Source of the DNA: Pseudomonas sp. MM213
GTDB taxonomy: Bacteria; Pseudomonadota; Gammaproteobacteria; Pseudomonadales; Pseudomonadaceae
Assembly (NCBI RefSeq): GCF_020423045.1
Contig: NZ_CP081943.1
Span: 868,001 to 932,000, forward strand
Reading direction: 5' to 3'
DNA length: 64,000 nucleotides
Shown here piece after piece: positions 1-19,321 of the stretch. Each line of letters begins with the position of its first letter. Within the stretch, counting starts at the first letter, position 1. Under the pieces are notes generated by a model. It was not told the DNA's origin, did not search any database, and saw nothing but the letters and a program-made list of their open reading frames with translations. Position numbers and translations under genes: made by a program.

Positions 1-584
1 AAGATCGCCGAAACGTGGGCCTTGACCGTGGTTTCAGCGATTTCCAGGGTGTAGGCGATCTGTTTGTTCGACTCGCCTTTGGTCATGCGCTCCAGCACCA
101 GCAACTGTTTGCGGGTCAGGGCCTGGAGCAGTTCCGGCGGGAAGCTCGGGGTGTCGTTCATCCGGCGGTGGGTGCCGCTTTTCTGCGTGCGGATGATGTC
201 CGGCGGCAGGTAGACGTTGCCATTGAGAATCTGCTGGATCGCCTCGGTCATCTGCACCCGTGGCGAGGACTTGGTGATGAAACCCACCGCGCCATAGGTG
301 ATGGCTTGCAGCACGATCTGCTTGTCCTGTTCCGCCGAGACGATCACCACTGGAATGGTCGGTGCCTCGTTGCGCAGGTTGATCAGGCCATTGAGACCGT
401 GCATGCCGGGCATGTTCAGGTCGAGCAGGATCAGGTCCAGGTCGTCGTGGTCCTGAGTCAGCGCCAGGGCGCTGTCGAGGTCGGCGGTTTCCATGACCTC
501 GCTGCCCGGGAATCCATCGCTGATGACGTTATGAATGGCTTCGCGAAACAGCGGGTGATCGTCGGCAATCAGAATTTTGTACAT
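1..584 (-). CDS. pedR1: LuxR-family response regulator, PedR1/ErbR (AgmR) type, 3'-truncated by window
   Basis: Translation from the ATG at 584 gives a receiver domain with the acidic pair at D8-D9 and phospho-acceptor D55 in a LLDLNMPG context. The C-terminal half carries a LuxR/NarL-type helix-turn-helix ending in [11 protein letters not shown]. The last residues lie outside the window; 194 codons are visible. Its place next to PQQ-associated transport genes matches the ErbR/AgmR/PedR1 activator of quinoprotein ethanol oxidation in P. aeruginosa and P. putida. Orthology is inferred from context and architecture; the family assignment is firm. Confidence 0.85.
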
Positions 585-5119: not shown

Positions 5120-5198
5120 AAGGCACTCCATCACGGGTAGCGCCAGCATAGGAAGCCTGAGGATGGGATGAAATATGCAGAAAGTACCAGTGAGGCAG

Positions 5199-5211
5199 TA
5201 CCAAGGTAGTA
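5199..5211. promoter_or_regulatory. ped box 2 (TACCAAGGTAGTA) in a divergent promoter
   Basis: Extended form AGTACC-AAG-GTAGTA. It lies 80 bp from the start of the ABC binding-protein gene on one side and 66 bp from the start of the 40-aa ORF on the other, so one site could serve both promoters. Confidence 0.5.
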
Positions 5212-5276
5212 ACTCGTCGAGGGCGGCGCGGTTTTAGCATGGGCAACAACGGCCATCACTCTGAAGGAGATCGACC

Positions 5277-5399
5277 ATGCGTATTCTCAAGGCGCTGCTC
5301 CTGCCGTTGTTGCTGATCCTGAGTCTGATCGGCGTCGACAAGCTCCACGGCCCGCGCCCCGCGTCGCTGCTGGTGATGCCTGCGACACCGGGGCGCTAG
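5277..5399 (+). CDS. 40-aa single-span membrane peptide upstream of the sensor kinase
   Basis: The ATG follows a good AAGGAG Shine-Dalgarno at 5263-5268 and the ORF ends in TAG, two bases before the GTG of the histidine kinase. The product begins with a basic residue pair, runs through a strongly hydrophobic stretch (LLLPLLLILSLIGV) and ends in a short polar tail. It therefore looks like a one-helix inner-membrane peptide or an uncleaved signal anchor. Tight spacing suggests co-translation with the kinase. I do not recognise a family. It could tune the kinase, or simply be a coupling leader. Confidence 0.65.
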   Translation: MRILKALLLPLLLILSLIGVDKLHGPRPASLLVMPATPGR

Positions 5400-5401
5400 G
5401 C

Positions 5402-6664
5402 GTGTCAGCCCTGTGGCGGATCAACCTGTGGGTCTGCGGATTTTTCGCGCTGGTCACTTTGGCGTGCATGGGCTTGCTGGTGCACCAGGCGCTGGCGGAT
5501 GTGGAGCGAGAGCTGCAATCCGCCGAGGCGGTGGTCGAGTACTTGAGCGAAACCGCCGCGCGCGATCCCGCCAGCCTGCAACTACGGTTGACGCAAAGTC
5601 TGCGTCACGTGCGGGTGCGCTGGCTCGAACCGGGCGAAGCGGCACAACCGCCAATGCAGGACGGGCTTGACGCCTGGCTCGGGCGATTGCTGTTTGCCGA
5701 GGCCAGGCACAGTGCGCGGGAGCTGGATCTGCAGGATGGCCGGCGTGTGCTGATTGCGGTCGATCCACGGGATGAAATCGATGAAGTCTGGGATTCCCTC
5801 CAGCAATTACTGAGCCTGTGTGGCCTGGCGTTGTTGTTGAGTCTGTTGACCATTCGCTGGGCCGTGCGCCGGGGCATGGGCCTGCTCGATGAGTTGCTGC
5901 GCGCATTGCGGCAGGTTTCCGGCGGCCAGCTCAAGGTGCGACTGCGCGCGCAAGGGCTGCCGGAAGCGCGGCAACTGGCAGTGCACTTCAATCGCATGAC
6001 CGAGGCACTGGAACAGGCGCGCGCCGACAACACGCAACTGACCAAGACCTTGCTGGCGGTGCAGGAACAGGAACGCACTCATCTGGCGCAGACCCTGCAC
6101 GACGACCTCGGTCAATACCTGGCGGGGATTCGCGCGCAGGCCTGTCTGTTGCGCCTGGTCGCCGATCAGCCGGACACCGTGGAGCGCACGGTGCGTGAGC
6201 TGGAACACAACTGCGAGCACCTGCAACAAGGTTTCAGAGCGCTGGTGCACGACCTCTATCCGGTGGTGCTGCAACACCTGCCGCTGGCCGAGGCTTTCGC
6301 GTTGCTGGTGGAGCAATGGCAAGGCCGACAGGGTGTCGATTGTCAGTTGCGCGTCAGCGCTTCGTTGCCGCCATTGTCTGCGCCGGCCAAAACCCATCTC
6401 TACCGCCTATTGCAGGAAGCCTTGACCAACGTCGCCCGCCACGCCGATGCAAGCCAGGTGCGGGTTCGCCTGCAACACTGCGGCGGGCAGTTGCGCTTAT
6501 TGATTCGTGACAACGGACGCGGCGCCCGCCAGCCACAGCGGCCGGGTGTCGGTTTGTATTCGATGTTCGAGCGCGCCCGCAGTCTGGGCGGTGAGTTACG
6601 CATCATCAGCCACCCCGGCGCCGGTTGGGCGCTGGCCTTGAGCATGCCTTTGGAGGCGTCATGA
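5402..6664 (+). CDS. pedS2: Sensor histidine kinase, PedS2 type
   Basis: A 420-aa membrane kinase starting at GTG 5402. Transmembrane helices lie at about residues 11-30 and 136-155, enclosing a periplasmic sensor loop. A HAMP region follows, then a HisKA_3 dimerisation domain with H233 (TLHDDLGQY) and a HATPase domain (LQEALTNVARHA, RDNGRGA). This is the NarX/DegS kinase class, paired with the LuxR-type regulator whose ATG overlaps its stop (ATGA). By synteny with P. putida it is PedS2, the kinase of the rare-earth switch between PedE and PedH. The sensed ligand cannot be read from the sequence. Confidence 0.87.
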   Translation: MSALWRINLWVCGFFALVTLACMGLLVHQALADVERELQSAEAVVEYLSETAARDPASLQLRLTQSLRHVRVRWLEPGEAAQPPMQDGLDAWLGRLLFAEARHSARELDLQDGRRVLIAVDPRDEIDEVWDSLQQLLSLCGLALLLSLLTIRWAVRRGMGLLDELLRALRQVSGGQLKVRLRAQGLPEARQLAVHFNRMTEALEQARADNTQLTKTLLAVQEQERTHLAQTLHDDLGQYLAGIRAQACLLRLVADQPDTVERTVRELEHNCEHLQQGFRALVHDLYPVVLQHLPLAEAFALLVEQWQGRQGVDCQLRVSASLPPLSAPAKTHLYRLLQEALTNVARHADASQVRVRLQHCGGQLRLLIRDNGRGARQPQRPGVGLYSMFERARSLGGELRIISHPGAGWALALSMPLEAS

Positions 6665-7299
6665 ATATTCTGCTGGTGGATGACCATGCGGTAGTCCGTC
6701 AGGGCTACGCGAGTTTGTTGCGCGCGTTGCTGCCGGCGATGGAAGTGCGTGAAGCCGCGACGGGTGAAGAAGCGCTGATCAGGGTTCAGGAGGCAGTGCC
6801 GAATCTGGTGATCATGGATTTCGGCCTGCCGGGGATCAGCGGGCTGGAAACCACGCGCCGGTTGCGACAGCGTCTGCCACAACTGCGCGTGCTGTTTTTC
6901 AGCATGCACGATGAGCTGCCGCTGGTGCGCCAGGCACTGGAGGCGGGCGCTTCGGGTTACCTGACCAAAAGCTCGGCGCCCGAAGTGCTGATCGAGGCGG
7001 TGCGGCGGATTCTCGCGGGCCACGCCTACATCGAACAGCCCCTGGCCACTCAACTGGTGTGTCACCCGCAACAGGACGCCAGCGACCCGCGTTTGCAGAG
7101 CATGACCCAGCGCGAACTGGAGATTTTCGTGATGCTCGCCAAAGGCACCCCGGCCCGTGTGATTGCCGAACAGCTGAGCATCAGCAGCAAGACCGTCTCC
7201 AATCACCTGACGTTGCTCAAGAGCAAATTGCAGGTGAGCTCCCATGCCGAGCTGGTGCATCTGGGGATTGATATGGGCTTGGTGCGAAAGGCGGGGTAG
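6661..7299 (+). CDS. pedR2: LuxR-family response regulator, PedR2 type
   Basis: A 212-aa regulator. The ATG at 6661 overlaps the kinase stop codon. The receiver has D7-D8 and phospho-acceptor D53 (IMDFGLPG), and the C-terminal NarL-type HTH reads LSISSKTVSNHLTLLKSKL. It is the cognate partner of the upstream kinase. In P. putida the PedS2/PedR2 pair activates pedE without lanthanides and represses pedH. Candidate DNA targets here are the GGGAAAATTTCCC palindromes in front of both dehydrogenase genes; that link is my inference. Confidence 0.88.
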   Translation: MNILLVDDHAVVRQGYASLLRALLPAMEVREAATGEEALIRVQEAVPNLVIMDFGLPGISGLETTRRLRQRLPQLRVLFFSMHDELPLVRQALEAGASGYLTKSSAPEVLIEAVRRILAGHAYIEQPLATQLVCHPQQDASDPRLQSMTQRELEIFVMLAKGTPARVIAEQLSISSKTVSNHLTLLKSKLQVSSHAELVHLGIDMGLVRKAG

Positions 7300-8168: not shown

Positions 8169-10061
8169 TCAGCGTTTCGCGGTCTGGTTATCCCAGCTCG
8201 GAATCTTGAACACCCAGAACGACCCGCCCTGAGCCACCGGTTTGGTCAGCTCGGCCATGTCGCCGCCCCACAACGGCACCGCGCCGCCATAGCCGACGGT
8301 CACGCCGATGTACTGCTCGCCGTCCTGTTCCCAGGTGATCGGCGGCGAGACGATGCCGCTGCCGGTCTGGAACTTCCACAGCTCCTTGCCGGTTTTGGCG
8401 TCGAAGGCCTTGAAGAAACCGTCGCCGGTGCCGGTGAACACCAGGTTGCCCTTTGTCGCCAGCACGCCGGCCCACAACGGCAAGTGTTCCTTGTGCTCCC
8501 ACACCACTTTGCCCGTAGTCGGGTTCATCGCCCGCAAGGTGCCGACGTGATCGTCGTACATGCGCTTGATGCGGAAACCCATGCCCAGATAGGCCGAGCC
8601 TTTCTTGTAGTTGACCTCTTCGGTCCAGTATTCCTCTTTCCATTGGTTGCCCGGAATGTAGAACAGGCCGGTGTCCTGGCTGTAGGCCATCGGGTTCCAG
8701 TTCTTGCCACCGAGGAACGGCGGCGAAACCTCCACCGGTTTGCCCTTGGTTTCCCCCGGCAGCGGCTTGGCCGGACGCTGGCCTTCATTCTCGACCGGCC
8801 GCCCGGTCTTCAGGTCGATGTGGCTGGCCCAGGTGATGTTGTCTACGAAGGGGAAGGCGTTCTGCAATTTGCCGTTGTTGCGGTCGACCACGTAGAAGAA
8901 ACCGTTGCGGTCCGCATGGCCGGTGGCCTTGACCGTTTTGCCGTCCTTGTCCTTGTAGTCGAACAGCACCAGCTCGTTGTTGCCGGAGAAATCCCAGGCA
9001 TCGTTCGGGGTGTGTTGGTAGAACCATTTCACCTCGCCAGTGCTCGGATCGACGCCGACCTGGCCCGAGGTGTAGAGGCTGTCGTAATCGTGCGGGTTGC
9101 CGTCCTTGGAGGTGCGCGCCCAGGTGTTCCACGGGCCAGGGTTGCCGGCGCCGACAATGATGGTGTTGGTTTCCGCGTCGAAACTGGCGCTCTGCCAAGG
9201 GGCGCCGCCGCCGTGGCTCCAGGCTTCGACCTTGCCGGTTTCAGTGGTTGGATCGTTCGGCCAGGACGGCGCCTTGACGTCACCGGTCGGCGTACTGTCC
9301 TTGCCGTTCAAGCGGCCCATGTGGCCTTCGACGAAAGGTCGCATCCACACTTCTTCGCCGGTGTCCGGGTCGCGGGCATAGAGTTGCCCGACCACACCGA
9401 ACTCATCGCCGGAACTGCCATGGATCAACAGCACCTTGCCGCTGGTCTTGTCTTTGATCAGCACCGGGGCGCCGGTCATGGTGTAACCGGCGGCGTGGTC
9501 GCCGAATTTCTTGTTCCAGACCACTTTGCCGGTGTTCTTGTCCAGCGCGATCAGCCGCGCGTCGAGGGTGCCGAAGTAGATTTTGTCGCCATAAATCGCC
9601 GCGCCACGGTTGACCACATCGCAGCACGGACGAATGTTGTCCGGCAAGCGATGGTTGTAGGTCCACAGGCGCTTGCCGGTCTTGGCGTCGAGGGCAAATA
9701 CCCGCGAGTACGAACCGGTGACGTACACCACGCCGTCACTGACGATGGCTTGCGATTCCTGACCGCGCTGCTTCTCGTCGCCGAAGGAGTAGGACCAGGC
9801 CGGCGTCAACTTGAACACGTTCTTGTCATTGACCTGGGCCAAAGGGCTCCAGCGCTGGGCGTTGGTGCCCATGCCGTATTGCAGAACGTCCTTGGTGGTC
9901 AGGTGATCCTTGGCAATGTCTTCCCAGCTCACGTTGTGCGTCGGTGTGGCAGGCGCGGTTGCAGCTTGGCTGGCAGCGCTCAGGGACAGGCTGCTCACCA
10001 GCAAAAAGGCTTGCACGGCGAGGGTCAAAGGGGAAAGGGCGGGTAGCGATCTTATTGTCAT
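8169..10061 (-). CDS. pedE: PQQ-dependent alcohol dehydrogenase, Ca-type (PedE/ExaA)
   Basis: A 630-aa periplasmic quinoprotein. The start at 10061 gives a signal peptide ending near SQA. An eight-bladed propeller of tryptophan-docking motifs follows. The adjacent cysteines C146-C147 form the vicinal disulfide. Metal and catalytic residues are E220, N307 and D357. Two residues after D357 stands S359 (WDFSG), where lanthanide enzymes have Asp, so this is the calcium-dependent member of the pair. It oxidises ethanol and other primary alcohols, passing electrons to cytochrome c (pedF, divergently transcribed). Confidence 0.95.
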
Positions 10062-10147
10062 GGTTGCAGTTCCCAGTGGAGGTTTTGGCCTGCACAGGGT
10101 GGTGCGTCCGACGGGGTGGCGAATACGGAAAAAGTCCCGCTGTTGCC

Positions 10148-10160
10148 GGGAAAATTTCCC
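10148..10160. promoter_or_regulatory. Palindrome GGGAAAATTTCCC upstream of pedE
   Basis: Palindromic 13-mer in the pedE-pedF divergent region, about 90 bp upstream of the pedE start. The identical 13-mer sits 32 bp before pedH (13579-13591). Candidate operator for a shared regulator such as PedR2. Confidence 0.5.
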
Positions 10161-10196
10161 AGGCGGCACCTGATTTGGATGTGCGTCGCAAGCCCT

Positions 10197-10209
10197 ACTA
10201 CCAAGGTAC
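10197..10209. promoter_or_regulatory. ped box 3 between pedE and pedF
   Basis: Read on the minus strand it is AGTACC-TTG-GTAGTA, the same arms as boxes 1 and 2. It lies about 107 bp from pedF and 136 bp from pedE. Confidence 0.5.
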
Positions 10210-10315
10210 TGGGTGGCGGCCACCAAAGCAGCATGGGGCTTGTGCGAAGTGATTCCTAAGATGGCTGCCATAGCCTCTGTAAAGAGGTTTTGCGTGCAAT
10301 CCTGAGGGCATAACA

Positions 10316-10777
10316 ATGACAACAAAACGCAACGCCTTGCTCGTTGCCGGCCTGCTGGCCGGCTTCATCAGTGCAGGTTCGGTCTGGGCTCACGGCAATG
10401 TCGTGCCACAAGCCGTCGAAACCCAGGGACTGACCCCGATCAAGGACGCCGGCGTGCAACTCGATGGCGATGGATGGGCGGCGGTGAACCCTTACCGCAC
10501 TTCCCCGGAACACGATAAGGCCGTCGAGATCGGTTCATCGGCCTACAACCAGAACTGCGCGGCCTGTCATGGCCTGGAAGCCAAGTCCGGCGGCATCGCG
10601 CCTGATTTGCGCATGCTCGATGTCGGTGAGGCCGGTGATGAATGGTTCGTCGAACGGGTGCGCCATGGCGCGGTGCGTGACGGCCGGGTGTACATGCCGA
10701 AAATGTCGGATTACCTGAGCCAGGAAGCCCTGTGGGCGGTGCGCACTTACCTGGACAGCGTCCGCGTCGAGGAGTAA
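10316..10777 (+). CDS. pedF: Cytochrome c550-type electron acceptor (PedF/ExaB-like)
   Basis: A 153-aa exported class I c-type cytochrome. It has a signal peptide ending at VWA-H and a haem-binding motif CAACH at residues 81-85. Candidate Met axial ligands are M127/M130 (YMPKM). It is divergent from pedE and heads a plus-strand operon with the binding protein, SoxYZ-like carrier and metallohydrolase genes. In the ped/exa systems this cytochrome takes electrons from the quinoprotein alcohol dehydrogenase to the terminal oxidase. A small CCTCT-GTAA-AGAGG hairpin (10274-10287) precedes the Shine-Dalgarno. Confidence 0.92.
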
Positions 10778-10780
10778 TGC

Positions 10781-11659
10781 ATGCGCCTGCTCGCGGTGTT
10801 GATCAGCGCTGTGTTGCTGTGCTGCCAGACGGTGCAGGCGCAGGTCCGCAGCTATGACGAAATGATCGCTGCCGGGGAGCTGAAAGTGGCGGTCTACAAA
10901 AACTTCGCCCCCTACAGTTTCGACGACGCCGGCCAACCCCGTGGCGTCGATGTCGACCTCGCCGAGGCGCTGGCCAAAGCGCTTGGCGTGCGCCTGACGC
11001 TGATCTGGGCGCCCGCCGGCGAGAAGCTCGACGACGACCTGCGCGACTACATCTGGCGCGCCAGTCCGTTGCACGATCTGCAACTGGCCGACCTGATGAT
11101 GCGCGTGCCCTATGACCAGGATTACGCACGCAAACGCAACGAACTGGGCGAACTGGAAAACAGCCATGTGGTGATGTTCGGTCCGTATCAGAACGAACAA
11201 TGGCAAGTCGCCTACGACCGTCGTCGGCTGGAATCGGTGGCCAGCGTCGCCGTGTTCGAGCATCACCCGATCGGCGTCGAGGTCGACAGTGTGCCGTCGT
11301 TCTACCTGACCTCGGTGTTCAACGGCATGCTCGCCGGCAAAACCCATCACTACCCCGGCGTGCCCCAGGCATTCGCAGCGATGAAGGCAGGTGAAGTCGA
11401 CGCGGTCATGGCCATGCGCGGCGAGATCGACTGGCAGGTTCATGAAGCCGCCGACCCGCAAGTGGCGCTGGCGGAAAACGCCTACCCGAATATGGGCAAG
11501 CAACTCTGGGAGATCGGCATGGCCGTGCACGAGAGCAACCGACAATTGGCCTATGCCGTGGAAGAGGCGCTGGAAGCCATGATCCGCGAGGGTTCGGTGA
11601 AAGCCATTTATGCCCGTTATGGCCTGCGCTATGACGTCCCGGAGATGTATCAACAGTGA
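10781..11659 (+). CDS. Quinoprotein dehydrogenase-associated periplasmic binding protein (MoxJ-like)
   Basis: A 292-aa SBP_bac_3-type solute-binding fold with a signal peptide (start 10781, four bases after the pedF stop codon). Typical family features are ELKVAVYKNFAPYSF near the N-terminus, VDLAEALAKAL, and the C-terminal VDAVMAMRGEIDW. The family is the MoxJ-related binding protein found beside PQQ dehydrogenases. In methanol dehydrogenase systems MoxJ/XoxJ is thought to help mature the enzyme, possibly with PQQ or metal insertion. The next gene's GTG overlaps its TGA. Confidence 0.88.
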   Translation: MRLLAVLISAVLLCCQTVQAQVRSYDEMIAAGELKVAVYKNFAPYSFDDAGQPRGVDVDLAEALAKALGVRLTLIWAPAGEKLDDDLRDYIWRASPLHDLQLADLMMRVPYDQDYARKRNELGELENSHVVMFGPYQNEQWQVAYDRRRLESVASVAVFEHHPIGVEVDSVPSFYLTSVFNGMLAGKTHHYPGVPQAFAAMKAGEVDAVMAMRGEIDWQVHEAADPQVALAENAYPNMGKQLWEIGMAVHESNRQLAYAVEEALEAMIREGSVKAIYARYGLRYDVPEMYQQ

Positions 11660-12417
11660 ACTGGCGCACGTGTGGTCTGTTGGCCTGTTGGCTACCCTTG
11701 GCCGCGCACGCGGCAGATATCCCACCGGGCAAAGACCCGGTGCCGTCGGTGATGTGGGCCTTCTATCACAAGCAGATGCTTGGCGACGCGCCGTTCGTGT
11801 TTGATGAGCGGGTCAAGCTGCTGGCGCCGCCGTTCGCCGAAGACGCCCGGCAAGTGCCGCTGGAAATCGACGCCCGAGGGTTCAAGGGCGAGGTGGTGAA
11901 AATCCTCGCCTGGGCCGAGCTCAATCCTTTGCCGAAAATTGTCGATTTCCAGCCGCTGGATCGGGTGTTGCCCTGGCTGTCGATCCGCATTCGTGTCGAA
12001 CAAGCCACGCCGCTGCGCGCGGCCGTCCTGACTCGCGACGGTGTGTGGCATGTCGGCTCGACCCTGATCGATGCGGCGGGCGGTGGATGCACGGCGCCGA
12101 GCGTGGTGCGCACCCAGCCGGGCTGGGAAGAGCACATCGGCGAAGTGCTTGGCGGACGTTATCCCCGTGGCGAGTTCAGCCGCTTGCGTTTGCAGGTGGC
12201 GCACCCGATGGATAACGGCATGGTCGGCGGTATCCCGGAATTTTTCATCAACCATGCCGAGCTGCGGGATCAGAACGATCAAGTGCTGGCCCGCCTCGAA
12301 CTGTTTCCCGCCGTCAGCGAAAACCCCAACCTGGCCTTCGACATCGAAGGGGCAGGGCAGACGCGCCTGTTGCTGCGCGACAACAGCGGCAACGAATTTG
12401 ATGCGGCCATACCCTGA
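11656..12417 (+). CDS. Quinoprotein dehydrogenase-associated SoxYZ-like carrier
   Basis: A 253-aa exported protein starting at a GTG that overlaps the preceding TGA. Residues about 30-150 resemble SoxY and end in GGGCTAP with C145, the position of the swinging-arm cysteine of SoxY. The C-terminal part resembles SoxZ (HPMDNGMVGGIPEFFINHAEL), so this is a natural SoxY-SoxZ fusion. No other sulfur-oxidation genes are present. It is encoded with a metallohydrolase of the quinoprotein relay group; the chemistry carried on the cysteine is unknown. Confidence 0.88.
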   Translation: MNWRTCGLLACWLPLAAHAADIPPGKDPVPSVMWAFYHKQMLGDAPFVFDERVKLLAPPFAEDARQVPLEIDARGFKGEVVKILAWAELNPLPKIVDFQPLDRVLPWLSIRIRVEQATPLRAAVLTRDGVWHVGSTLIDAAGGGCTAPSVVRTQPGWEEHIGEVLGGRYPRGEFSRLRLQVAHPMDNGMVGGIPEFFINHAELRDQNDQVLARLELFPAVSENPNLAFDIEGAGQTRLLLRDNSGNEFDAAIP

Positions 12418-12433
12418 CTCAAAGGAGCGCGTG

Positions 12434-13375
12434 ATGCGCTGGATGCTGCTGTTGTTCATTAGCCTGAGCCTTCCGGCGTTGGCCGAACTCGACTATTCAC
12501 TCAAGCCCCGGCAGATCGCCGCCGACACCTGGCTGCTGGAAGGCAGCACCGACAATTTTGCCAAGGCCAACGGCGGCAACATCGTCAACACCGCCTTCAT
12601 CGTCACCGAACGCGGGGTGGTGGTGATCGACACCGGGCCGTCCAGGCGATACGGCGAAGCGATGCGCAAAGCCATTGCCGCGACCACCGACAAACCGGTG
12701 ATCCAGGTGTTGCTGACCCATCATCATCCCGATCATGTGCTGGGCAATCAGGCCTTCAGCGATGTGCCGATTGGCGCGCTCGCGGGCACCTGCGAGTTGT
12801 TGAAGCAGCAGGGTGACGCCATGGCCGAGAACATGTATCGGCTGGTGGGCGACTGGATGCGGGGCACCGAAGTGGTGTTGCCGACCGAGACGCTGACGCC
12901 CGGCGTGCGAAATTTTGGGGATCACGATCTGCGCCTGCTGAGCCTGGGTGGGCATACCGGCGCGGATCTGGCTATTCTCGACCAGCAAACCGGCGTGCTG
13001 TTTGCCGGGGATCTGGTGTTTTACCAGCGGGCGCTGACCACGCCCAACAGTCCGGGGTTGTCGGTGTGGCTGGCGGACATCGCCACGCTTCAGGGGTTGG
13101 CGTGGACGCTTATTATCCCCGGTCACGGCCCGATCTCCACGGATGCAAAACCGTTCGAGCAAATGCGTGACTACCTTGGCTGGCTCGACCAGTTGATGCG
13201 CGAGGGTGCGGCCAACGGCAGCGACATGGCCGAGATGATCCGCAGCCCGATTCCCGAACGCTTCGCCGGGATCAGCCTGAGTCGCTACGAACTGATCCGC
13301 AGCGTCAGCCATCTCTATCCGCGCTACGAGCGCACACAAATGAAACGCGTTGACTCCACCACCAACCAACGCTGA
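12434..13375 (+). CDS. Quinoprotein relay system zinc metallohydrolase (MBL fold)
   Basis: A 313-aa exported metallo-beta-lactamase-fold protein. The ATG at 12434 follows AAAGGAG and opens on a signal peptide ending at ALA. Zinc ligands are HHHPDH at residues 96-101; later metal-binding segments are GGHTGAD, FAGDLVF and IPGHGP. It is close to SoxH-type hydrolases and belongs to the group co-occurring with SoxYZ-like carriers next to PQQ enzymes, so its substrate may be a thioester or persulfide on C145 of the carrier. The function is untested as far as I know. Confidence 0.88.
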   Translation: MRWMLLLFISLSLPALAELDYSLKPRQIAADTWLLEGSTDNFAKANGGNIVNTAFIVTERGVVVIDTGPSRRYGEAMRKAIAATTDKPVIQVLLTHHHPDHVLGNQAFSDVPIGALAGTCELLKQQGDAMAENMYRLVGDWMRGTEVVLPTETLTPGVRNFGDHDLRLLSLGGHTGADLAILDQQTGVLFAGDLVFYQRALTTPNSPGLSVWLADIATLQGLAWTLIIPGHGPISTDAKPFEQMRDYLGWLDQLMREGAANGSDMAEMIRSPIPERFAGISLSRYELIRSVSHLYPRYERTQMKRVDSTTNQR

Positions 13376-13381
13376 TCCATT

Positions 13382-13467
13382 GTGGGAGCGAGCCTGCTCG
13401 CGATAGCGGTCTGTCTGTCACATTGATGCTGAATGTGCTGCGCCTTCGCGAGCAGGCTCGCTCCCAC
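13382..13467. repeat. REPIN (GTGGGAGCGAGC class)
   Basis: Arms GTGGGAGCGAGCCTGCTCGCG and its complement, between the metallohydrolase and the pedH promoter. Confidence 0.9.
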
Positions 13468-13576
13468 AGGGGATGTGTGTTGGTCAATAACACCCGACCC
13501 TGTACTAAGGAACTAGCAATCTCAGCACTGCGGGCAATTGTTGCAAGGGCGGCGGCGCCCAAGAATCTGCACCAGA

Positions 13577-13594
13577 CCGGGAAAATTTCCCGGG
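13577..13594. promoter_or_regulatory. Palindrome CCGGGAAAATTTCCCGGG upstream of pedH
   Basis: A near-perfect 18-bp palindrome (only the central A:A breaks symmetry) 29 bp from the pedH start. It is followed directly by TATAAC, a possible -10 element, so a bound protein would overlap the promoter. Its 13-bp core equals the pedE site at 10148-10160. A weak ped-box-like sequence, TGTACTAAGGAACTA, is at 13501-13515. Confidence 0.55.
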
Positions 13595-13622: not shown

Positions 13623-15398
13623 ATGACCCAACCCGCACGTCGCCAACCCTTCGTCTTGAGCCTGTTGCTCAGTGCCATGCTGTTGTCCGGCACCGCATTG
13701 GCCGCCGTCACTGACCAGGACATTCTCCAGGACCCCAAGAACCCGGAGCAGGTCGTCACCAACGGTCTGGGCGTCCAGGGTCAGCGCTACAGCCCGCTCG
13801 ACACCCTCAACGTCAACAACGTGAAGGACTTGCGGCCGGTCTGGGCCTTCTCCTTCGGCGGCGAAAAACAACGCGGTCAGCAAGCGCAACCGATGATCAA
13901 GGACGGCGTGATGTACATGACCGGCTCCTACTCGCGGGTGTTTGCGGTGGATGCGCGCACCGGCAAGAAACTCTGGCAATACGATGCGCGTCTGCCCGAT
14001 GACATCCGCCCGTGCTGTGACGTGATCAACCGGGGCGTGGCGCTGTATGGCGACCTGGTGATTTTCGGCACCCTCGACGCCAAGCTCGTGGCCCTGAACA
14101 AAGACACCGGCAAAGTGGTGTGGAGCAAGAAGGTCGCCGACCACAAGGAAGGTTATTCGATCAGTGCCGCGCCGCTGGTGATCAACGGCAAACTGATTAC
14201 CGGCGTGGCGGGTGGCGAGTTCGGCGTGGTCGGCAAGATCGAAGCCTACGACCCGAAAAACGGTGATCTGTTGTGGACCCGGCCCACCGTCGAGGGCCAC
14301 ATGGGCTATGTCTACAAGGACGGCAAAGCGGTAGAGAACGGCATCTCCGGTGGCGAAGCAGGTAAGACCTGGCCCGGCGATCTGTGGAAAACCGGCGGCG
14401 CCGCCCCTTGGCTCGGCGGCTACTACGACCCGGAAACCAATCTGCTGCTGTTCGGCACCGGCAACCCGGCGCCGTGGAACTCGCACCTGCGCCCTGGCGA
14501 CAACCTTTACTCGTCGTCACGCCTGGCGCTGAACCCCGACGACGGCACCATCAAGTGGCACTTCCAGAGCACGCCCCACGACGGTTGGGACTATGACGGC
14601 GTGAACGAACTGGTGTCGTTCAACTACAGCGAAGGCGGCAAAGAAATCAAAGCCGCCGCGACCGCAGACCGTAACGGTTTCTTCTACGTGCTGGACCGCA
14701 CCAACGGCAAGTTCATTCGCGGCTTCCCCTTCGTCGACAAGATCACCTGGGCCACCGGCCTCGATAAACAAGGCCGGCCGATCTACAACGAAGCCAGCCG
14801 TCCCGGCGCACCGGGCACCGAAGCCAAGGGCAGTTCGGTGTTCGTCGCCCCGGCGTTCCTCGGCGCGAAAAACTGGATGCCGATGGCCTACAACAAGGAC
14901 ACCGGGTTGTTCTACGTACCGTCCAACGAGTGGGGCATGGACATCTGGAACGAAGGCATCGCCTACAAGAAAGGCGCGGCGTTCCTCGGTGCTGGTTTCA
15001 CCATCAAGCCCTTGAACGAAGACTACATCGGCGTGCTGCGCGCCATCGACCCGAAAACCGGCAAGGAAGTCTGGCGTCACAAGAACTTCGCGCCGCTGTG
15101 GGGCGGGGTGCTGACCACTAAAGGCAACCTGGTGTTCACCGGCACGCCGGAAGGTTTTCTCCAGGCATTCAATGCCAAGACCGGCGAGAAAGTCTGGGAA
15201 TTCCAGACTGGCTCCGGCGTACTTGGCTCGCCCGTGACTTGGGAAATGGATGGCGAGCAGTACGTCTCGGTGCTGTCCGGTTGGGGCGGCGCGGTGCCGC
15301 TGTGGGGCGGTGAAGTGGCCAAGCGCGTGAAGGACTTCAACCAGGGCGGCATGCTCTGGACCTTCAAGTTGCCGAAAGACCTGGTGGCCAAGCACTAA
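13623..15398 (+). CDS. pedH: PQQ-dependent alcohol dehydrogenase, lanthanide-type (PedH/ExaF)
   Basis: A 591-aa periplasmic quinoprotein with a signal peptide ending near ALA. It has the vicinal disulfide C131-C132, and metal and catalytic residues E199 (GGEF), N281 (GTGNPAP), D323 and D325 (WDYDG). The second Asp, two residues after the catalytic one, is the established mark of lanthanide-dependent PQQ dehydrogenases. In P. putida PedH is used when La, Ce, Pr, Nd or Sm are present. It is paralogous to pedE here. It is transcribed alone between a palindromic operator candidate and a REPIN. Confidence 0.95.
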
Positions 15399-17520: not shown

Positions 17521-18435
17521 ATGCACATTCGCGTTCTCGGTTCCGCCGCTGGCGGTGGTTTTCCGCAGTGGAACTGCAACTGTCGCCAGTGCGCCGGTAT
17601 GCGCAATGGCAGCCTGCGTGCGCAACGTCGCACGCAATCCTCCATTGCCCTGAGCGACAACGGTGTGGACTGGGTGCTGTGCAATGCCTCCCCGGATATT
17701 CGCGCGCAACTCGAGAGTTTCGCGCCGCTGCAACCGGCACGTCGCTTGCGCGACACGGCCATTGCCGGCGTGGTCCTGATGGACAGCCAGATCGACCATT
17801 GCACCGGCCTGTTGAGCCTGCGCGAAGGCTGCCCGCATTCGGTGTGGTGCACCGAGCGGGTTCATGAAGACCTGAGCAGCGGCTTTCCATTGTTCACCAT
17901 GCTCAAGCACTGGAATGGCGGTTTGCAGTGGCAACCGATCGGACTCGATCGCCAGCCGTTCAGCATCGCGGCCTGCGAACAGTTGCAGTTTCGGGCCATT
18001 CCGCTGGTCAGCAATGCTCCGCCGTATTCACCGAATCGGGGTAACCCACAGCCAGGCGACACCATTGGCCTGTTCATCGAAGACCGGCGCACGGGCGCTT
18101 CGTTGTTCTATGCGCCGGGCCTCGGGCAAATCGATGACGAGGTGTTGAGCTGGATGCAGCGTGCCGATTGCCTGTTGCTGGATGGCACGTTGTGGCGCGA
18201 TGACGAAATGCGCGTCTGTGAAGTCGGCCAGAGCCTGGGCAGCGAGATGGGGCATCTGCCGCAGAGTGGGGCAGGCGGGATGCTGGAGGTGTTGGAGGGT
18301 TTTACTCGTCAGCGCAAGGTGCTGATCCACATTAACAACACCAACCCGATCCTCGACGAAGACTCGGCTGAGCGGGCGTTGCTGGAGCGGCGCGGGATCG
18401 AGGTGGCCTATGACGGCATGGGCATCGTGCTGTAG
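17521..18435 (+). CDS. pqqB: PQQ biosynthesis protein PqqB
   Basis: A 304-aa cytoplasmic metallo-beta-lactamase-fold protein of standard length. It opens with [21 protein letters not shown], the PqqB signature carrying the zinc-binding cysteines, and has [11 protein letters not shown] and GHLPQSG in place of the usual MBL ligands. PqqB is thought to be the hydroxylase acting on the cross-linked Glu-Tyr intermediate. It is second in the pqq operon. Confidence 0.97.
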
Positions 18436-18443
18436 CGGATGAC

Positions 18444-18530
18444 GCCTTCGCGGGCAAGTCGGATCGCCGCACCGCTCGCTCCTACAAGGTTCGCGCATCG
18501 CCTGTAGGAGCGAGGCTCGCCCGCGAAGGC
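18444..18530. repeat. REP doublet with extended arm
   Basis: The left arm contains an inserted TCGGATCGCCGCACCGC segment inside the REP; the right arm is the ordinary GTAGGAGCGAGGC type. The 37-bp left arm is identical to that at 58073-58109. Confidence 0.85.
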
Positions 18531-18568
18531 GCCAGACCAGACACCGCAAATCCTCCAGGAGACCTGCA

Positions 18569-19321
18569 ATGACTGATACAGCGATGAACCCCACCGAATT
18601 CGAACAGGCCCTGCGCGCCAAAGGCGCGTACTACCACATCCATCACCCGTTCCACCAAGCCATGTACGCCGGTCGCGCCAGTCGCGAGCAGATTCAAGGC
18701 TGGGTCGCCAACCGCTTCTACTACCAGATCAACATTCCGCTCAAGGACGCCGCCATCCTCGCCAACTGCCCGGAGCGCGACGTGCGCCGCGAATGGCTGC
18801 AACGGATTCTCGACCATGACGGCGTGCCTGGCAGCGAAGGCGGTATCGAAGCCTGGCTGCGGTTGGGCGAAGCTGTGGGCCTGGATCGTGAGCAAATTCT
18901 GTCCCAGGAACTGGTATTGCCCGGCGTACGTTTCGCCGTGGACGCCTACGTCAATTTCGCCCGGCGCGCCTGCTGGCAGGAAGCGGCCAGCAGCTCGCTG
19001 ACCGAGCTGTTCGCCCCGCAGATCCACCAGTCGCGGCTGGACGCCTGGCCCGCGCATTACCCGTGGATCGACGTCGCCGGTTACGACTATTTCCGCACGC
19101 GCCTGAGTCAGGCGCGGCGCGATGTCGAGCACGGTTTGCGCATTACCCTGGCGCACTACGTCACCGTCGAAGCCAAGCAGCGCATGCTGGAAATCCTCCA
19201 GTTCAAGCTCGACGTGCTGTGGAGCATGCTCGACGCCATGAGCATGGCCTACGAGCTGGAACGCCCGCCGTATCACACGGTGACCACCGAACGCGTCTGG
19301 CATCGGGGGATCGCCTTGTGA
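18569..19321 (+). CDS. pqqC: Pyrroloquinoline-quinone synthase PqqC
   Basis: A 250-aa cofactorless oxidase of the haem-oxygenase-like helical fold. It performs the final ring closure and eight-electron oxidation that yields PQQ. Family segments visible are YYHIHHPFH near the N-terminus, [23 protein letters not shown] and [15 protein letters not shown]. Its stop codon overlaps the GTG of pqqD. A REP doublet separates it from pqqB without breaking gene order. Confidence 0.97.

Follow-up and report, generated by a model that had tools for sequence, protein, structure and literature searches.

How is one pair of promoters switched in opposite directions by the same signal? The question is raised by the ped cluster of Pseudomonas sp. 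MM213, which lies within the 64-kb stretch analyzed here (64,000 nucleotides of contig NZ_CP081943.1, positions 868,001 to 932,000; the window) and includes pedE and pedH, the genes of a Ca-type and a lanthanide-type alcohol dehydrogenase that depend on pyrroloquinoline quinone (PQQ). The same genes, regulator and inverse control have been described for the PedS2/PedR2 switch of P. putida KT2440 (Wehrmann et al. 2018, PMC6115532). According to that report, PedS2 phosphorylates PedR2 when lanthanides are absent, and phosphorylated PedR2 (PedR2-P) activates pedE and represses pedH. PedR2 is needed for pedE, pedH is repressed via PedR2 when PedS2 is locked on, and the PedS2 S178P allele lowers pedH promoter activity 45- and 30-fold (PMC6115532). 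The literature we searched describes this switch through mutants and reporters and names no binding site. The original prediction, made from the DNA letters, pointed to a palindrome shared by the promoters of pedE and pedH and proposed PedR2 as its ligand. Our comparisons make it highly probable that this palindrome, CGGGAA-N3-TTCCCG, is the PedR2 operator, which would activate pedE from upstream and repress pedH from just past its predicted transcription start.

The exact 13-mer GGGAAAATTTCCC occurs at both places claimed for it, 10148–10160 and 13579–13591 (Table 1). Its distances from the genes, put originally at about 90 bases for pedE and 32 for pedH, were nearly right; we measure 86 and 31 bases to the respective ATG. 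The palindrome at pedH had been described as 18 bp long and is in fact 17 bp, with a central A. The genome of 6,746,355 bases contains three copies of the 13-mer, two being the pedE and pedH sites and the third falling within an unrelated open reading frame (ORF), versus none for the reversed control. Across 99 Pseudomonas genomes the 13-mer was found in 36 (39 places) and the reversed control in 2 (2 places); among the 63 genomes without a PedH orthologue, compared by eye, the 13-mer was present anywhere in 7. Outside the ped sites, then, the exact 13-mer is rare and not, as the original prediction had allowed, common at unrelated positions. As the unit of recognition, the exact 13-mer was rejected. 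Its central bases are variable and few pedE sites match it exactly, so we take the unit to be the core GGGAA-N3-TTCCC. Genome-wide, this looser core shows a modest enrichment (8 places versus 4 for the reversed pattern). The six core copies at other places were not adopted as a regulon, three of them (L003, L004 and L006) being in ORFs; the other three (L172, L173 and L008) are not covered by an ORF, as judged with a crude filter. The L008 copy, GGGAAAACTTCCC (L008:1501-1513, G000:C1:4865173-4865185), may be a further target or a chance occurrence.

We analyzed pedH promoters to assess conservation of the site. PedH orthologues (82–100% identity) are encoded by 36 of the 99 genomes; by eye, the exact 13-mer lies no more than about 50 bases upstream of pedH in 27 of these and not in the other 9. 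Aligned pedH promoters show CCGGGAA-N3-TTCCCGG amid other conserved elements. A larger set of 398 genomes was then scanned with a promoter pattern blind to the palindrome. This yielded 109 promoters, from which one chance match (G336) was removed. The pattern relies on conserved flanking sequence; promoters that it misses include those of G002 and G060 (PedR2 absent, core broken) and G049 (PedR2 present, 13-mer exact). PedR2 status was assigned by scoring up to seven candidates per genome, and scoring 29 agrees for the first 99. All 72 promoters from genomes with PedR2 have an intact core (62 exact), compared with 23 of the 36 from genomes lacking PedR2 (19 exact). In the remaining 13, the core is broken in several different ways. 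The association between intact core and PedR2 has a Fisher p of 1.1e-7, uncorrected for relatedness.

We also counted changes on a pedH tree. Of its 102 genes, 50 come from loci with the pedE/pedR2 block and 52 from loci without. Because the loci taken were the 80 best of 267, the tree is dominated by close relatives. Excluded were L027 (the window's genome), L045 (PedR2 status unclear), L067 (a second copy, on the same contig as L063) and loci lacking a full pedH. Block status was assigned by PedR2 for L028–L056 and by pedE in the flank for L057–L136, and in the parsimony counts a gap was scored as a fifth state and a lost block could not be regained. No change fell in the ten core columns on block-containing branches (length 3.33), compared with 25 on block-less branches (2.07). 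Counts were 104 and 30 in the twelve spacer columns (–36 to –25) and 330 and 129 in the 98 columns that lie outside the palindrome. Per column and branch length, the core on block-less branches changes at the same rate as the spacer (1.21 for each). Seventeen promoter columns selected as conserved changed 0 and 1 times, respectively. In a less selected control, 28 outside columns unchanged on block-containing branches changed 8 times on block-less ones, versus 25 for the ten core columns. The core is intact in 50/50 block-containing and 28/52 block-less loci, and 13 of the 20 loss clades contain at least one broken site. These data show that conservation of the pedH site depends on the presence of the block.

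PedH-like genes were also examined in 57 genomes from nine genera, three of these genomes being from the window's own genus. The strict pedH core was found in 31 of 38 genomes with PedE and in 10 of 19 without. None of the 19 PedE-less genomes has PedR2, and all nine PedE-containing genomes that were checked have it, including all seven that lack the strict core. Within genus g9, the core is present in 5/5 genomes with PedE versus 1/7 without; for g15 the figures are 6/6 versus 1/3.

At pedE, the site is a pair. Box 1 and a second, degenerate copy (GGGACTTTTTCCG on the pedE strand) together span 10126–10160, 65–99 bases ahead of the pedE ATG. Box 1 lies in the divergent pedE–pedF intergenic region, 155 bases ahead of pedF, so pedF is also a possible target. 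All 33 pedE–pedF regions compared by eye, the window's included, have GGGA-N2-A-N-TTCCC, with the strict core in 32, and 32 have the second element, TACGGAAAA-N2-TCCCG, 22 bp closer to pedE (L135 deviates). The exact 13-mer occurs in two, those of the window and L059; besides the window, L059 (4833) is the other locus with the exact 13-mer ahead of both pedE and pedH. In a set of 30 pedE promoters, GGG-N7-CCC and box 2 are found at constant spacing in every case, including all nine from genomes with PedE and no PedH (four of them strict). Among 30 family-level loci from six genera, which partly overlap this set, 29 have both boxes (19 strict) and one has no recognisable box 2. G454 and G421 show the reverse arrangement, with the perfect palindrome at box 2 and the degenerate copy at box 1, so both boxes are of one kind. 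Conservation in related species, which the original prediction had named as a check, thus holds for the core at both genes.

Which regulator does the site serve? On good comparative evidence, the palindrome is a strongly constrained operator, and very probably that of PedR2. The original choice of PedR2 is supported in that PedR2, with the linked pedE block, predicts retention of the pedH site. Both proteins occur in 35 of the 99 genomes, with PedE alone in G035 and PedR2 alone in G076 (by eye; these are fragmented assemblies). Of 81 pedF loci, 47 lack the pedS2-pedR2-pedD-pedE block; among these 47, only L061 retains a piece of pedR2, 46 residues long and beside pedF (L061:4638-4775). A search of plasmid records for PedR2 gave no match. 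By annotation, PedR2 is the one DNA-binding protein in the lost block. In KT2440, the pedE promoter is reported to require both PedR1 and PedR2, and the pedS2R2 promoter PedR1 only (PMC13390443). We found no core within 5140–5420 or elsewhere ahead of pedS2; together with the PedR1-only control reported for that promoter, this fits a PedR2 operator.

Several observations weigh against this assignment. In Pseudomonas, the 23 PedR2-less genomes noted above retain the pedH core, as do 6 of 7 in genus g12, which recent loss would explain only if those losses are young. Block-less loci with a leftover box 1 all retain the pedH core (4/4, versus 17/39 for other block-less loci), a pattern that fits young losses, although the loci are few. 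In the other genera, seven of the 38 PedE-containing genomes, with PedR2 present, are each one base off the strict core at pedH, and genus g12 (7/7 versus 6/7) runs contrary to a simple rule; g5, g18 and G406 also show exceptions. Box 1 is strict in only half of the pedE promoters (15/30). For L057–L136, block status rests on the presence of pedE within a 5-kb flank; 29 of 34 such pedE loci, the window among them, were seen to carry pedR2 as well. Finally, the regulator disappears together with pedE, pedD and pedS2. What the data implicate is therefore the block, and PedR2 only as its DNA-binding member.

One alternative is that some other regulator binds the palindrome, and that the site decays upon loss of the pedE block because it is useful only when both enzymes are present. 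A separate route of lanthanide-dependent pedH activation has been proposed (PMC6115532), and many PedR2-less genomes do retain the core. Yet the pedE boxes are kept in the nine genomes without PedH, which indicates that the site does not need both enzymes, and PedR2 is the annotated DNA-binding protein of the lost block. We therefore judge this explanation improbable.

Even less probable is binding of the palindrome by PedR1 (AgmR), which acts as master activator of the ped genes. PedR1 is a LuxR-type protein and also governs pedE and pedF (PMC13390443). However, PedR1 persists in all but one of the 36 PedR2-less genomes, and that one (G273) is an assembly of about 1,200 contigs; upkeep of the palindrome is therefore not due to PedR1. 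A PedR1 site would be expected to be kept wherever PedR1 is kept; instead, the pedH core is broken in 13 genomes that all retain PedR1. We rejected PedR1 as the ligand. Moreover, the PedR1-only pedS2R2 promoter lacks the core and has TACTACCTTGGTACT, an example of a different candidate PedR1/AgmR box, TACTACC-N2-GGTACT. Boxes of this form are retained where pedE and pedR2 are gone. Ahead of pedF, TACTACCAAGG is exact in 33 of 34 loci with pedE and in 41 of 47 without, the remainder being one base off, whereas box 1 is found in 34/34 and 5/47, respectively; the loss of box 1 may in part be the deletion itself. A PedR1-like box ahead of pedH, near 13503, has too many mismatches and is not claimed.

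It is very improbable that the pedH palindrome acts instead as a hairpin in the leader RNA. The palindrome would be transcribed if the start is near 13573, and a short hairpin could fold. But the same sequence stands 65–99 bases ahead of the pedE ATG, paired and with degenerate symmetry. In addition, no paired changes are seen on block-containing branches, where the core never changes. Because the start is a predicted one, this counterargument is weak. Chance palindromes or generic promoter conservation, for which one could cite the mere twofold excess of the looser core over its reversed control (8 versus 4), have next to no probability, being already contradicted by the strong conservation of the core (0 changes in ten columns versus 104 in twelve spacer columns on block-containing branches) and of the pedE pairs across six genera.

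Where does the pedH operator lie relative to the promoter? The original prediction placed it over a possible –10 element. This does not hold up well: TATAAC follows the palindrome, but its last base is C where T would be expected, and its first is variable. Better conserved promoter-like elements, TTGTTG and AAGAAT, stand upstream of the palindrome. They match the consensus weakly, and a promoter scan found no promoter at pedH. A literature search for start sites brought up one paper, which concerns a different promoter. Within this region, AATTG (13536–13540) shows zero changes on the tree in both branch classes. A position shortly past the start is thus more likely for the operator than one over the –10; counted from the predicted start, the operator would occupy about +7 to +19, a place that suits repression. 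The upstream place of the pedE boxes is suited to activation. The genetics reported for KT2440 (PMC6115532) are in line with the original assignment of an activating role at pedE and a repressing one at pedH.

These features suggest how the PedR2 operator could work. PedR2 is NarL-type by its domains, and both the 17-bp palindrome and the pedE box pairs are inverted repeats suited to a dimer. A PedR2 dimer would bind CGGGAA-N3-TTCCCG. PedR2-P on the two pedE boxes, 22 bp or about two helical turns apart, would activate pedE. At pedH, PedR2-P would sit on a single, nearly perfect palindrome shortly past the predicted start and repress the gene, perhaps sterically. Lanthanides would lower the level of PedR2-P, such that activation of pedE is lost and pedH is freed. 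More speculatively, and with considerable doubt, one operator could build the whole inverse switch, graded by symmetry: with a near-perfect palindrome fixed by selection at pedH versus two weaker boxes at pedE that would have to be bound cooperatively, pedE would go off before pedH is released. If so, falling PedR2-P would give a break-before-make hand-over between the enzymes, and lineages that lost the pedE-pedR2 block would be permanently derepressed for the lanthanide enzyme.

The published work on the KT2440 switch, as far as PMC6115532 shows, is genetic, and the operator is what our analysis adds. The original prediction knew of no description of a PedR2 site, and we likewise found none in the open-licence literature searched. 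Term searches of the main texts of PMC12997753, PMC6115532, PMC13390443, PMC5487730, PMC7188995 and PMC6839425 gave no statement of this site; the main text of PMC6115532 has no match for binding site, motif, palindrom or inverted repeat, and that of PMC13086498 none for EraR or ErbR. EraR, the P. aeruginosa orthologue of PedR2, is counted among the factors with predicted targets in an HT-SELEX atlas (PMC8041468). The in vitro specificity of the orthologue has evidently been determined there, with no motif in the accessible text. If that motif is GGGAA-N3-TTCCC, the specificity is already on record, although we have not seen it tied to the lanthanide switch in the accessible part of PMC8041468. 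PedR1/AgmR control of the same cluster is another close system, with a LuxR-type activator that also acts at pedE (PMC13390443); it differs in its candidate box, which is retained where PedR2 is lost.

Among other NarL-family regulators, PedR2 is related to DevR/DosR. DosR sites are inverted repeats with GGG/CCC ends. The OsdR site, AGGGCCGATCGGCCCT, is said to conform to the DosR-type repeat (PMC5069765). Sites of DevR/DosR differ from the candidate PedR2 site in their inner bases, as does the signal, and the likeness is one of resemblance only. The lanthanide switches of methylotrophs (MxaY, XoxF; PMC6115532) have the same inverse control of Ca- and lanthanide-type quinoprotein dehydrogenases, with different sensors.

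With a 13-bp core and a distinct prediction for each promoter, a few point mutations would be enough to test direct PedR2 binding and how the switch works. The motif could be used to find further PedR2 targets and to build promoters that respond to lanthanides. Loss of the pedE-pedS2-pedR2 block has occurred repeatedly, with decay of the operator, and offers a clean natural experiment on how regulation evolves.

Table 1. Genes and candidate regulatory elements of the ped cluster (window coordinates)
Feature	Position	Strand	Remarks
PedR1/AgmR-like response regulator	1..584	-	extends beyond left window edge; assigned by size and position
Candidate PedR1/AgmR box TACTACCTTGGTACT, ahead of pedS2	5197..5211	-	same type as pedF-side box
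pedS2, sensor histidine kinase	5402..6664	+	Pfam HAMP, HisKA_3, HATPase_c
pedR2, LuxR/NarL-type response regulator	6625..7299	+	Pfam Response_reg, GerE
pedE, Ca-type PQQ alcohol dehydrogenase	8169..10061 (ATG 10061)	-	TIGR03075; WDFS motif
pedE box 2 (candidate), degenerate copy	10126..10138	-	22 bp from box 1; fuzzy match, up to 6/19 substitutions
pedE box 1 (candidate), GGGAAAATTTCCC	10148..10160	.	GGG-N7-CCC in 30/30 pedE promoters
Candidate PedR1/AgmR box TACTACCAAGGTACT, pedE-pedF region	10196..10210	+	putative function
pedF, cytochrome c-550	10316..10777 (ATG 10316)	+	TIGR04494
Predicted pedH promoter	TTGTTG 13538-13543, 17-bp spacer, AAGAAT 13561-13566	+	columns unchanged on tree; predicted start ~13573
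pedH operator (candidate), 17-bp palindrome CCGGGAAAATTTCCCGG	13577..13593 (13-mer 13579-13591)	.	core intact in 72/72 PedR2+ and 23/36 PedR2- genomes
pedH, lanthanide-type PQQ alcohol dehydrogenase	13623..15398 (ATG 13623)	+	TIGR03075; WDYD motif

The cluster begins at the left edge of the window with a regulator that we take to be PedR1/AgmR by its size and position, not by any family model, and a transporter region with periplasmic-binding and beta-propeller proteins. It continues with pedS2 and pedR2 on the forward strand, pedD and pedE on the reverse, and then pedF, pedG, SoxYZ-like and SoxH-like genes, pedH, an aldehyde dehydrogenase gene, pqqB and pqqC. The true start of pedR2 is probably the ATG near 6661. 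The closest relative of PedR2 in the PDB is NarL, with VraR and DevR (3c3w, E 6.7e-25) also found. PedE and PedH were assigned to the Ca and lanthanide types by their WDFS and WDYD motifs, respectively, which we assume to be diagnostic. Between the SoxH-like gene and pedH, a long imperfect inverted repeat, GTGGGAGCGAGCCTGCTCGCG ... CGCGAGCAGGCTCGCTCCCAC (13381–13470), presumably resembles the REP elements of Pseudomonas. Shortly downstream of pedH in the window are pqqB and pqqC (17521–19321); in P. putida, according to a review, the pqq operon is far from ped (PMC12997753).

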